Source: a virus
Length of the DNA stretch: 34,595 bases
IMG/VR virus record: IMGVR_UViG_3300028794_000184
Span: 1 to 34,595 of that record
Direction: 5' to 3' (one strand)
Program-made: the position numbers and the translations under genes
The notes under the pieces: generated by a model
Databases searched by the model: none
Told to the model about the DNA's origin: nothing
The model's input: the letters and a program-made list of their open reading frames with translations, nothing else
Shown: positions 2,637 to 7,268 of the stretch, one piece after another
Numbering within the stretch: position 1 is the first letter of the stretch
Layout: every line of letters starts with the position of its first letter

Positions 2637-3509
2637 ATGACAACGATTATTGACTCTCAGAAAAAGGAAATTCAAATGCTGCTGAAATCTTTCATTGAGC
2701 AGTACGCAAGCCAGGCGAAGGCAGTTGCCGCGCTGAAAAATGTAAGTGAGGCGACCGTGATTAACATAAGGCGCGGAGATTGGGAAAGCATTAGCGATGA
2801 CATGTGGCGCAATGTGGGCAAGCAAGTGGGCCTGAATGAAAAGAGCAAATGGAAGTTTATCGAGACCACACCAGCACGCAAGCTTATCGATTTTCTGGAT
2901 GATGCTCGGGAGTATGGAAATGTATTCTCTATCACAGCTGATCCTGGAACCGGTAAATCATTTGTAAGTGAATGGTATGAAAACAAACGGCCCAATGTAT
3001 ACACGGTGAGCTGCTCCGAGTATTTCAACCGCAAGGTATTCCTTCAACAGATACTTGAAAAGATGGGCAAGACGAACACTGGATTATCGGTGCCCGAAAT
3101 GATGGACGTGATTGTTGAAACATCACTAAAGAAGGAAAGTCCTTTGCTGATTTTAGACGAGTTCGATAAAGTATCTGATTCGATCCTATACTTCTTCATC
3201 ACCTTATATAATAGACTGGAAGGAAACATGGGTATCGTAATCATGGCTACCGACTACCTGGCGAAACGCATCATGCGCGGACGCAAGATGAACAAGAAAG
3301 GATATGCGGAGATCTTCAGCCGGATAGGCCGCAGGTTTATTACCCTGCCCCCGCCAACAGAGAAAGAAGTGTTCGATATAGCCAAAGCCAACGGGGTAGA
3401 GAATCCGCAGGATCTACACTCTATATATAATGAGTGCGAAGGGGACTTGCGTAGGGTAAAACGTGCGATCCACAAAAGCCGGATGAAGGCGATGAAAAAA
3501 GCCGCTTAA
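2637..3509 (+). CDS. MuB-like AAA+ target-binding ATPase
   Basis: This 290-aa protein matches the MuB / transposition-ATPase family. MuB coats target DNA, activates the transposase and gives target immunity. Residues about 15-60 form a helix-turn-helix-like N-terminus (SQAKAVAALKNVSEATVINI), as in MuB. The AAA+ core carries Walker A DPGTGKS (residues 102-108, Lys107) and Walker B LLILDEFD (Asp174, Glu175). A sensor-like stretch (GIVIMATDYLAKR) and a probable arginine-finger region (FSRIGRRF) follow. Length is close to MuB (312 aa). It follows the transposase gene after the tRNA-like RNA, the expected A-B order. Confidence 0.92.
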   Translation: MTTIIDSQKKEIQMLLKSFIEQYASQAKAVAALKNVSEATVINIRRGDWESISDDMWRNVGKQVGLNEKSKWKFIETTPARKLIDFLDDAREYGNVFSITADPGTGKSFVSEWYENKRPNVYTVSCSEYFNRKVFLQQILEKMGKTNTGLSVPEMMDVIVETSLKKESPLLILDEFDKVSDSILYFFITLYNRLEGNMGIVIMATDYLAKRIMRGRKMNKKGYAEIFSRIGRRFITLPPPTEKEVFDIAKANGVENPQDLHSIYNECEGDLRRVKRAIHKSRMKAMKKAA

Positions 3510-3926: not shown

Positions 3927-4064
3927 ATGAGAAAGGATTTGTATAACCCGTTGCTTTGGATAGTGCTATTGATGTATGCCTGTGTAGTGGCGATGTGTGC
4001 CGCTACAGTGGCATTTAAGAAATCGTTTTGTAATGAAGTAGCTGCATTTGTAAACGCCAGGTGA
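3927..4064 (+). CDS. Small single-pass membrane protein, 45 aa
   Basis: ATG at 3927 opens a 45-codon frame that ends with TGA at 4062-4064, sharing one base with the next ATG. The central stretch NPLLWIVLLMYACVVAMCAA is a clear transmembrane helix, flanked by MRKDLY and KKSFCNE. The sequence does not name a function. The coupled start/stop and neighbouring small membrane gene support it as real. Early phage membrane miniproteins often affect superinfection or host physiology, which is inference only. Confidence 0.55.
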   Translation: MRKDLYNPLLWIVLLMYACVVAMCAATVAFKKSFCNEVAAFVNAR

Positions 4065-4234
4065 TGAAAAAAATTTATATGAACTGCTTATTGTATGTGG
4101 CCTTTGCGATGGTGGTTTTAATCGTGGGCTTCTTTGTGAGCGAACACATTGATGAGGTGATGGTGTATCTGTTCGCTGTAATCTGGAATGCAACTGGTTT
4201 GGTAGTAGGGATAATCATATTCAGCAACCGATGA
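4064..4234 (+). CDS. Small two-pass membrane protein, 56 aa
   Basis: ATG at 4064 overlaps the preceding TGA by one base. Its own TGA (4232-4234) overlaps the next ATG (4231) as ATGA. The protein has two hydrophobic helices, about residues 8-25 (LLYVAFAMVVLIVGFFV) and 33-53 (MVYLFAVIWNATGLVVGIII), joined by the acidic SEHIDE loop. No family is recognised. The unbroken chain of coupled genes supports expression with the DnaA-like protein that follows. Confidence 0.55.
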   Translation: MKKIYMNCLLYVAFAMVVLIVGFFVSEHIDEVMVYLFAVIWNATGLVVGIIIFSNR

Positions 4235-4566
4235 AAGAGGGAGCGATATATGAGTGGGATTTTAAAAACTCCCACATCGTAAGAATGAAAGCCCGAATTA
4301 TTGAACTGGTATGCAACGAGTTTACAGTAACGAAGGAGGAACTGTGTGGACTGGACCGGAAAAGAAAGTTACAGAATGCCCGAATGGCATACGTGTATCT
4401 GACCAACAGACACACCAAAGACACTTACTTGGTGATGGCTGAATTTTTAGAAAGACATGTAAGCAGCATATCGCACATGGTGCGAACATTGGAAAATCTG
4501 ATTTTTATTAAAGACCCTATAGTAAAGAGTATACGCAACATTGAAAATCAACTTTTAACACAATAA
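4231..4566 (+). CDS. Stand-alone DnaA domain IV-like DNA-binding protein, 111 aa
   Basis: Residues about 20-90 resemble the C-terminal DNA-binding domain of the initiator DnaA. The order is a helix ending LVCNEF, the TVTKEELCGLDRKRKLQNARMAYVYL pattern (compare DnaA segments on either side of the basic loop), then a helix pair where HVSSISHMVRTLE stands in the place of the DnaA signature HTTVLHA..KIE. The AAA+ ATPase domain of DnaA is absent. It could bind DnaA-box-like sequences or divert the host initiator during replicative transposition; both are inference. It is coupled by ATGA to the upstream membrane gene and precedes gam. Confidence 0.75.
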   Translation: MKEGAIYEWDFKNSHIVRMKARIIELVCNEFTVTKEELCGLDRKRKLQNARMAYVYLTNRHTKDTYLVMAEFLERHVSSISHMVRTLENLIFIKDPIVKSIRNIENQLLTQ

Positions 4567-4576
4567 CAAAATACCC

Positions 4577-5176
4577 ATGACAAAAACAAGAATCAAAAAA
4601 ACAGTAATTGAAGAAGTTACACATGAAGAAGCTGTCCAAGCTTTTGCTGAGTTAGCCGCAGCTGATGCTGAAACAAAAAGAATAACAGCCGAAATGGATT
4701 TAGAGATGACGAAAATCAGGATGATATATCAGGATGATCTTGAAGCAAATGCAAAAATTGTTCGGGAGAAATTCGATTTACTTCAGGCATTCTTAAAACT
4801 TCATCCTGAAGTGCTTGGCGATAAACGTAGTGTTGAGCTAACACACGGCACAATCGGGTATAGACTTGGCCAGCCAGCGTTGAAAACTTTAAAGGGATTT
4901 ACCTGGGGAGCCTGCAAAAAGCTTGTAACTGAATTTATCTCTGAGGACTATATAAGAGAAAAAACAGAGATTGATAAAGAAAGTCTTTTGGCTAATCGTG
5001 ATCGATTAGTGACAGAAGTTCTCATTTATGATGAAACTGATCCGATATGGCAAACGCCAGAAGAAGATCGGCCATCGTTTTCAAGCCTATTTGAGAAGTG
5101 CGGTTTTAAGGTAGAACAGGACGACACTTTTTATGTCGTGCCTAAGAAAGAAGAAGCACTTCAAACTACATTATAA
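4577..5176 (+). CDS. gam: Host-nuclease inhibitor Gam-like protein
   Basis: This 199-aa protein fits the Mu Gam family, which binds double-stranded DNA ends as a Ku-like dimer and shields them from host exonucleases. It shows the family's long N-terminal helical hairpin (about residues 15-75, KRITAEMDLEMTKIRMIY) followed by the Gam core around residues 80-110 (KRSVELTHGTIGYRLGQPALK), which is characteristic. The C-terminus (about 120-199) extends beyond Mu Gam with a Glu/Asp-rich stretch. Position in the early operon after the transposition genes agrees. It is followed by an unusual 326-base gene-free block. Confidence 0.9.
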   Translation: MTKTRIKKTVIEEVTHEEAVQAFAELAAADAETKRITAEMDLEMTKIRMIYQDDLEANAKIVREKFDLLQAFLKLHPEVLGDKRSVELTHGTIGYRLGQPALKTLKGFTWGACKKLVTEFISEDYIREKTEIDKESLLANRDRLVTEVLIYDETDPIWQTPEEDRPSFSSLFEKCGFKVEQDDTFYVVPKKEEALQTTL

Positions 5177-5502
5177 GGGAGATTCGGTTAGACCCTTCCC
5201 CTTGTCGGGGGCAGAGAGGCAAAGGATTCTAACTTTTATGGCACATCCCTTGGCGTCTGGTTCTGAAACCAGAGTTGCAGATAAGTGCTGATTAGTATGA
5301 ATAAACCCGCCCGGATCTGGTAACAAACATTAGCGGGAATCCTTTGTAAAGACTATACCAAACCATTTAACCCTTCTCTTTTTGAGAGGGGTTAAGGTTC
5401 GGTGAATAATGAGAAAACACAGGGCTATTCGACCTGAAAGTTTCGAATAAGTGGGGGGCTTTTACCCCTCTATCTACCCACACACACACACTATTATATC
5501 CG
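5177..5502 (+). ncRNA. Gene-free structured block downstream of gam
   Basis: No convincing gene lies here; the longest ATG frame inside the main fold is 17 codons from 5238. The block is rich in paired elements. CAAAGGATTC (5220-5229) pairs with GAATCCTTTG (5337-5346) over 10 bp. Inside it are TGGCAC/GTGCTG (5239-5244/5285-5290, with wobbles), TCTGGTT/AACCAGA (5256-5262/5267-5273) and CCGC/GCGG (5307-5310/5333-5336). Downstream are a 12-bp hairpin with a T5 loop (5367-5395, one G-U), a TATTCGA/TCGAATA hairpin (5426-5432/5443-5449) and a GGGG/CCCC hairpin near 5454-5468. A CA repeat (5481-5490) ends the block. This looks like a structured RNA or long leader. Family unknown to me. Confidence 0.6.
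5367..5395 (+). other. Strong 12-bp hairpin with T5 loop
   Basis: TTAACCCTTCTC and GAGAGGGGTTAA pair over 12 bp with one wobble and a TTTTT loop. The hairpin is not followed by a T-run, so a standard intrinsic terminator is unlikely on the + strand. It could be an RNA stability element, a processing site or an inverted-repeat operator. It sits immediately downstream of the multi-branched fold at 5220-5346. Confidence 0.7.
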
Positions 5503-5841
5503 ATGAGTAATCTTCGAAAGAATGCTTACGTGTGCCAAAATCTGCACGTAACTGTAACCCAAGACCTCGAAAAGGGCACTACACCTATGTTCATCAATTG
5601 TCCTACTTGTGGTGAACCAAAAACAAGAGAGCAAGCAAATCTATTCATGGCCGGATCACTAATGTATAGAATCAATCAAAGTAAGATTGCTTCGCATGAA
5701 TGGTTTATGCCTACTGAAAAAGATCTGGCAGCAATGGCAGTATCGATGAGCGAATGGGAATTTCGCGCCACAGCCGAACATGTTAAGCAGGGTGGCTTGC
5801 TTATGCGCAAGATTGAAGGAACGGAGGTGAGCAATGTCTAA
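5503..5841 (+). CDS. Hypothetical protein with a CxxC motif, 112 aa
   Basis: Not recognised as a family. Near residues 31-36 the sequence INCPTCGEPKTRE carries one CxxC knuckle, and a further Cys lies at residue 11 (YVCQNLH). A small zinc site is possible but incomplete on its own. The C-terminal half is helical (EKDLAAMAVSMSEWEFRATAEHV). It is the first gene after the structured block. Its last codons overlap the next gene by 8 bases, so the two are probably co-translated. Confidence 0.65.
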   Translation: MSNLRKNAYVCQNLHVTVTQDLEKGTTPMFINCPTCGEPKTREQANLFMAGSLMYRINQSKIASHEWFMPTEKDLAAMAVSMSEWEFRATAEHVKQGGLLMRKIEGTEVSNV

Positions 5842-6428: not shown

Positions 6429-7268
6429 ATGGCAAGGGTACTCGGATTAAAACAACTGCTAAGCAAGAAGTATAATTTCCTGGAAGGACTACCGGATGAG
6501 ATTACGCACTGCTTCGGCCGACTGGTGAATAACTTCATCATGATCATTTGGGGGAATAGTGGCAACGGCAAAAGTAGCTTCCTGATGAGCTTTATTAAAG
6601 TGCTTATGCCGTTTGGCAAAATTCTTTATGTGGCATTGGAGGAAGGATTTGAAGCGACCACGCAAATGAATGCACTTCGAAGCCTGAACGAAGATGAACA
6701 CAGTGGCAAGATTGAGTTTGCCGATTGCGATATGAATTACGATGAACTTGTAAAGAAGCTGAAGAAAAAGAAATCGCCACGCTTCATTATCATAGACAGC
6801 GTTCAGTATTGGGACATCACTTATAAAAAGTATAAGGATTTGAAGCAGATGTTTAAGAATAAGACATTCATTTTTATCAGCCATGCTACAAATAAGGAAC
6901 CAAGGGGAACAGTTGCGGACAGCATACGCTATGATGCTGGAATAAAAGCGCGCGTGGAAGGCTTTATGGTAGATGTAAAAAGTCGCTATGGAGGAAACAA
7001 CCCTTATGTGATTTGGGAGGAAGGCGCGGAAAAGTATTGGGGTAAAAATTATCGCACTGCTATAAGCGGAGCAAAAGAGACTAAGAAAAAGAAACCTAAA
7101 CCAACCTTAAAAAAGACAGATGAGGTACTACAACAAATACACCCGGCTGAGTCATTGGCAGAACCCAGAGAATCATTTTTGGGAGAACGACAAGTGGACG
7201 GAGACAGCGAAAGAATATTATCGGAATTGGTTGGCAACCATGCTGAAAACGTCACAGAAGATTTATAA
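6429..7268 (+). CDS. RecA-like P-loop ATPase, 279 aa
   Basis: Walker A reads WGNSGNGKSS (residues 41-50, Lys48, Ser49). A strand with a glutamate (LYVALEEGFE, 66-74) resembles the second catalytic region of RecA/RadA-type ATPases. Walker B is RFIIIDSVQ (Asp123), followed by a sensor strand FIFISHATN. The C-terminus after about residue 215 is Lys-rich and then acidic, likely disordered. The family resembles phage RecA/DnaB-fold (AAA_25-type) ATPases, which remodel DNA or load helicase. It is distinct from MuB and is a second early-operon ATPase. Exact role is inference: replication or recombination support. Confidence 0.75.
   Translation: MARVLGLKQLLSKKYNFLEGLPDEITHCFGRLVNNFIMIIWGNSGNGKSSFLMSFIKVLMPFGKILYVALEEGFEATTQMNALRSLNEDEHSGKIEFADCDMNYDELVKKLKKKKSPRFIIIDSVQYWDITYKKYKDLKQMFKNKTFIFISHATNKEPRGTVADSIRYDAGIKARVEGFMVDVKSRYGGNNPYVIWEEGAEKYWGKNYRTAISGAKETKKKKPKPTLKKTDEVLQQIHPAESLAEPRESFLGERQVDGDSERILSELVGNHAENVTEDL

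Follow-up and report, generated by a model that had tools for sequence, protein, structure and literature searches.

Comparative analysis indicates that the region directly downstream of gam in a Mu-like phage encodes a real, conserved and pseudoknotted + strand RNA (positions 5174-5354), shared within a clade of Bacteroidota Mu-like phages. The window, i.e. the whole 34,595-nt stretch of DNA analysed, is a viral contig carrying the early genes of a Mu-like phage (Table 1) whose closest annotated relatives are phages of Bacteroides, Porphyromonas, Elizabethkingia and Winogradskyella. The gene-free block reported after gam in the initial annotation is real, with limits that were slightly off, as the conserved RNA begins within the gam stop codon and the main domain extends to about 5354. 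The proposal that the block holds a regulatory or functional RNA was strongly supported: compensatory changes, whose comparison across relatives had been set beforehand as the test, were found, and no conserved protein frame was detected in the block. The 10-bp long-range stem (about 5219-5229/5337-5347) and the hairpins at 5256-5273, 5367-5395, 5426-5449 and 5454-5468 that had been described are all present in the sequence. The idea of a structured RNA layout held, but the conserved anatomy differs from the one drawn for it, and the 3' portion forms an element of its own that can be separated from the main domain; this division and the pseudoknot with the gam stop codon were absent from the earlier description.

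Table 1. Genes and RNA features of the gam region (window coordinates, unless a locus is named)
Feature	Position	Strand	Remarks
MuA	502-2454
MuB	2637-3509
DnaA-C-like protein	4231-4566
Gam	4577-5176		PF07352, E 4e-24
Main conserved RNA domain	5174-5354	+	About 180 nt; six homologues, R1 bit scores, covariation
PK1 5' strand, UAAGGGA	5174-5180	+	Pairs with 5246-5252; overlaps gam stop codon 5174-5176
Gene-free block	5177-5502		Between gam and next gene
Hairpin S1, UCCCC-UUGUC-GGGGG	5197-5211	+	Paired in 7/7; U-G to U-A and C-G to U-G changes
S2 5' strand	5219-5228	+	10-bp long-range stem; both-sided changes in 6/10 pairs, seven sequences
Inner stem S3, ACU...GCAC/GUGC...AGU	5232-5296	+	Encloses PK1 3' strand and hairpin S4
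PK1 3' strand, UCCCUUG	5246-5252	+	In S3 loop
Variable hairpin S4	5256-5273	+	Inside S3
Stem S5, CCCG/CGGG	5306-5337	+	Strands 5306-5309/5334-5337; 3/4 pairs changed on both sides; 100% paired
Conserved loop CUGGUAAC	5317-5324	+	In S5
S2 3' strand	5338-5347	+	10-bp long-range stem
12-bp spacer hairpin	5367-5395	+	Similar in L211
Conserved 3' element, TTGACCC-N(about 11)-GAATAAGtGGGGGGgTTTTACCCC	5424-5473	+	Upstream of next gene
Next gene after block	5503-5841
ATPase of phrog_6891	6429-7268
tRNA-like elements after gam, from scan	L011 5677; L016 5530; L019 4521; L026 5531; L031 5644; L034 4963; L036 3958; L055 5603
tRNA-like elements after gam, by inspection	L092 5575; L208 4887; L210 about 5691; L219 about 3944-3982	- (L219)

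Searches with Gam or MuA as single proteins yielded no relatives, and the related phages were reached through alignments of Gam and of the ATPase. Six further homologues of the RNA were identified, five in viral contigs (L210, L211, L169, L196 and L219) and one in a prophage of Chryseosolibacter indicus (L207). In those recovered by the alignment searches (L207, L210 and L211) the same RNA is found immediately 3' of gam, L169 and L196 were added by a profile search over all loci, and L219 was found through a DNA pattern derived from the hairpin S1 region alone. The covariance model R1 scored 105-157 bits on the homologues; L219, which was held out of the model, gave 105 bits with all modelled pairs formed. 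Over about 1,480 Bacteroidota genomes the sole find of R1 was the Chryseosolibacter prophage, while the R1 candidates L216 and L217 were judged on inspection to be chance matches and L221 gave a partial match of 25 bits. BLASTN of the region against phage and plasmid records returned no homologue.

In all homologues the RNA immediately follows gam or a divergent gene resembling it. Among the six sequences compared, the gam-like assignment of this gene was strong for the window and weak for L207 and L210, whose Pfam matches (E 4e-6 and 2e-5) narrowly miss the curated cut-off; it was very weak for L169 and L196, and for L211 it was made by position only. On the ATPase tree the carriers of the RNA were clustered, requiring 2 changes where shuffles gave 4.6 (as few in 8 of 500). 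They do not form a single clade on this tree, in which few branches are firmly supported, and this pattern fits losses such as that in L089. As the RNA is absent from the close relatives L089 and L188, it is dispensable.

The fold of the main domain is carried by covariation in S1, S2 and S5, where 97.7% of the 133 pair cells across the seven sequences are standard pairs. Changes on both sides were observed in 9 of 19 pairs and 21 cells (shuffle means 4.8 and 5.9), and the covariation score for the three stems was 0.501 versus 0.183 in shuffled alignments (0/500 as good) and 0.02-0.10 in slid controls, which were 38-50% paired. These statistics were obtained on an alignment fitted to the R1 structure, and an earlier count with a MAFFT alignment gave the same picture. 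Within S2, the pair 5222/5344 occurs as A-U, G-C or U-A, 5223/5343 as A-U, U-A or C-G, 5224/5342 as G-C or A-U, and 5225/5341 as G-C or C-G. The inner stem S3, short in the window, is kept despite different sequence in L207 (UUGAUUUA/UAAAUCAA), L210 (CAUGGAC/GUCC-UC-CAUG), L211 and L219 (UUGCAA/UUGCAA), and is partial in L169 and weak in L196. The invariant G-U pair at 5219/5347 and the U-G pairs in S1 and S5 assign the RNA to the + strand, which is the coding strand. Besides the stems, the unpaired motifs GGCA, CUAA, AUAAACC, CUGGUAAC (kept in 4/7 sequences, with CUGGCAAC in L219) and UGUAAAG are conserved and look like those of a functional RNA.

A pseudoknot, PK1, of 6-7 pairs joins the first bases of the RNA, at or next to the gam stop codon, to the loop of S3 in all seven sequences, with strands GAAAGGG/CCCUUUC in L210, GAAGGAA/UUCCUUC in L211, GGAAGGG/CCCUUCC in L169, GAAGGGG/CCCCUUC in L219 and GAAGGG/CCCUUC in L207 and L196. 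When the loops were swapped among species, 12 of 5040 permutations paired as well as the own pairing did, and shuffled loops never did as well (maximum 40.5 versus 46.5). Counted from the final base of the gam stop codon, the 5' strand starts at -2 to +6 nt in 7/7, a stretch that a terminating ribosome would cover. In the window, the PK1 leader has a rival target near the 3' end of the domain that scores slightly higher, so the case for PK1 rests on the homologues.

Mutually exclusive pairings of ACCAGA (5268-5273) with two copies of TCTGGT had also been proposed. The second copy does exist at 5316-5321, but the switch is not supported, as ACCAGA sits in S4 and is absent there in 6/6 homologues, and the TCTGGT copy is part of the conserved, apparently unpaired CUGGUAAC motif. 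Since S4 differs in every homologue, only the window could form the alternative pairing. As a single sequence the block folds only moderately more stably than expected by chance, with z = -2.3 for the + strand (2/100 shuffles reach this stability) and z = -3.2 for the - strand. This energy would not by itself settle the structure, which the comparative evidence does.

The 3' element is composed of TTGACCC, about 11 nt and GAATAAG, followed by a G-run, TTTT and a C-run. Each of 12 phages of the clade has a single copy of it downstream of the gam position, and the next start codon lies 14-69 nt further on (27-40 nt in 9/12). Five of these phages (L089, L090, L091, L188 and L190) carry it without the main domain, which makes it a separate module, and a weaker copy is present in L208. 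It is conserved in sequence with few covarying pairs. Its hairpin is formed in all, and T-runs follow it in about half of the relatives (L207, L210, L211, L219 and L190) and are absent from L188, L169, L196 and the window, where the element was not scored as a terminator; it resembles a terminator in some relatives and is unlike one in others. In place of the spacer hairpin that precedes it in the window, other hairpins are found in L207, L169 and L196 and tRNA-like modules in L210 and L219.

Of 75 gam loci scanned for tRNA-like elements, defined by a 7-bp acceptor stem and a T arm, 8 have them in the 500 nt that follow gam, whereas the density in the remainder of these loci (7 in 651 kb) predicts about 0.4. 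The normal anticodon arm is often missing from these elements. This strong enrichment suggests that the post-gam site is a general RNA locus across Mu-like phages. Some tRNA-like elements are very small, at 39-47 nt, and consist of an acceptor and a T arm only; they were observed at L219 3944-3982 (- strand), where an encoded ACCA follows, and at L115 860, L116 2466 and L002 1776. Right after gam in L208, positions 4887-4964 give a tRNA-Lys(ttt) call whose best Rfam match is tmRNA (31 bits, below threshold) and whose acceptor stem has a G3-U70 pair with A73. The window itself carries another tRNA-like element between MuA and MuB (2463-2603), with a 7-bp acceptor AGTGAGG/CCTCACT, a normal T arm and, in place of the anticodon arm, a long stem TGATAAAC/GTTTATCA with an insert; it scores 32.9 bits with the Rfam tRNA model and is invisible to ARAGORN. 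Separately, near-threshold matches to RT-17 RNA (L092 6706-6801 and L208 8365-8450) and reverse-transcriptase-like frames in L092 and in L219 (7458-8420, oriented) suggest that diversity-generating retroelements may be present in related phages.

The Rfam scan that had been proposed for the block gave no family match: in Rfam 15, the window at the gathering threshold and positions 5100-5560 at E up to 10 yielded sub-threshold chance matches only, and L207, L210 and L211 at E up to 1 had no match within the interval. Literature searches found no description of the present RNA. The large or ornate RNAs GOLLD, HEARO and ROOL, which are in Rfam, are likewise conserved structured phage RNAs and often lie near tRNA genes, but the present RNA differs from them in its fold, its smaller size and its tie to gam in Bacteroidota Mu-like phages. 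A likeness to tmRNA (RF00023) lies in the tRNA-like acceptor/T-arm module that stands beside the pseudoknotted domain in two homologues, and in the string GUAAAGACUGAC of L210 and L169, which we take to be shared with E. coli tmRNA. However, the two acceptor strands are located 3' of the domain, an arrangement that is not that of tmRNA, and the module is missing from 5/7 sequences. A tag frame with an LAA end was not seen, ARAGORN called no tmRNA in the window, L207, L210 or L211, the Rfam tmRNA model had no match in the latter three, and a tmRNA was rejected.

On the whole, the observations are best explained by a discrete early-operon RNA, which we favour over a gene-specific switch with about even confidence. 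Such an RNA would be co-transcribed with MuA, MuB and gam, fold while the gam ribosome leaves the stop codon, and act in trans or bound to protein as a noncoding RNA of the early lytic programme, not as a switch for the following gene. Two of the seven, L210 and L219, carry a tRNA-like acceptor/T-arm module behind the main domain and ahead of the 3' element, and there the main domain could be cut from the downstream mRNA by RNase P and tRNA-processing enzymes. The upstream gene stays gam-like, whereas the downstream gene differs among the window, L207/L211/L169, L210, L196 and L219 (a zinc-ribbon-like protein, an EFVRGARH-type protein, a phrog_6891-type ATPase and others); this disfavours a gene-specific riboswitch, for which the same class of downstream gene would be expected across homologues. 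The position against the gam stop codon suits a cis element coupled to translation equally well as a discrete RNA, and the overlap makes such an element the main rival, possible in our view at well below even chance. A ribosome terminating on gam would melt PK1, and without the ribosome PK1 would form and alter readthrough, mRNA stability or operon translation nearby. The start of PK1 close to the end of the stop codon in 7/7 and the spacing of the 3' element before the next start codon in most phages are consistent with this role; however, the downstream gene is not conserved, the tRNA-like modules would sever the domain from the mRNA in L210 and L219, and the persistence of the 3' element without the domain means that the two parts are not obligate partners.

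The mid-operon position, along with the G-run/TTTT/C-run hairpin of the 3' element and the T-runs behind it in five relatives, is also what an RNA of processive antitermination might present. HK022 put and EAR are likewise structured RNAs of early phage or mid-operon transcripts with a terminator-like element nearby. HK022 put is a known phage antitermination RNA (PMC9378689). In the present case the nascent RNA would modify RNA polymerase, which would then read through the 3' element and other pauses. We regard this as doubtful, as the window's 3' element was not scored as a terminator, three relatives have no T-runs, and no Rfam 15 family was matched in the window, L207, L210 or L211; the present RNA is moreover larger, has no sequence or model match to put or EAR and differs in its stop-codon-overlapping pseudoknot. 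Inverted repeats could instead act as DNA, and Mu-type phages require DNA sites such as an operator, a transposition enhancer or a gyrase site. The sequence conservation of the 3' element with its few covarying pairs agrees with this, and a DNA-level role is still possible for that element alone, but for the region it is highly improbable, as the G-U pairs of the main domain would be mismatches on the other strand and its stems change bases freely with pairing kept. Scarcely credible is a short overlapping coding frame with trivial RNA structure, e.g. the PLSGAERQ frame or the MNKP mini-ORF at 5297-5323: in 7/7 a frame running through S1 stays open over 16 codons or more and an N/H/Y-K-P-like string recurs around AUAAACC, but L211 has an in-frame stop codon inside S2, lengths vary from about 16 to 57 codons, and the variable sites of CCCTTGTCGGGGGCWGNGNGGC are mostly codon positions 1 and 2, whereas position 3 varies little, opposite to what coding constraint would give. 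Coding frames in the block were rejected.

The fold, absent from Rfam 15, shows strong covariation from only seven sequences, and it occurs in transposable phages of a major bacterial phylum, a setting in which phage RNAs have been little studied. As the RNA always sits at the gam stop codon, a possible coupling between RNA folding and translation in a phage can be tested directly. A more specific and improbable reading makes the RNA a partner of the Ku-like Gam or a sensor of Gam synthesis: with a pseudoknot seeded in the gam stop codon, folding would hinge on gam being translated. The RNA would bind Gam or compete with DNA ends for it, as would the post-gam tRNA-like modules of other Mu-like phages. 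If this were true, end protection during transposition would be timed by an RNA.
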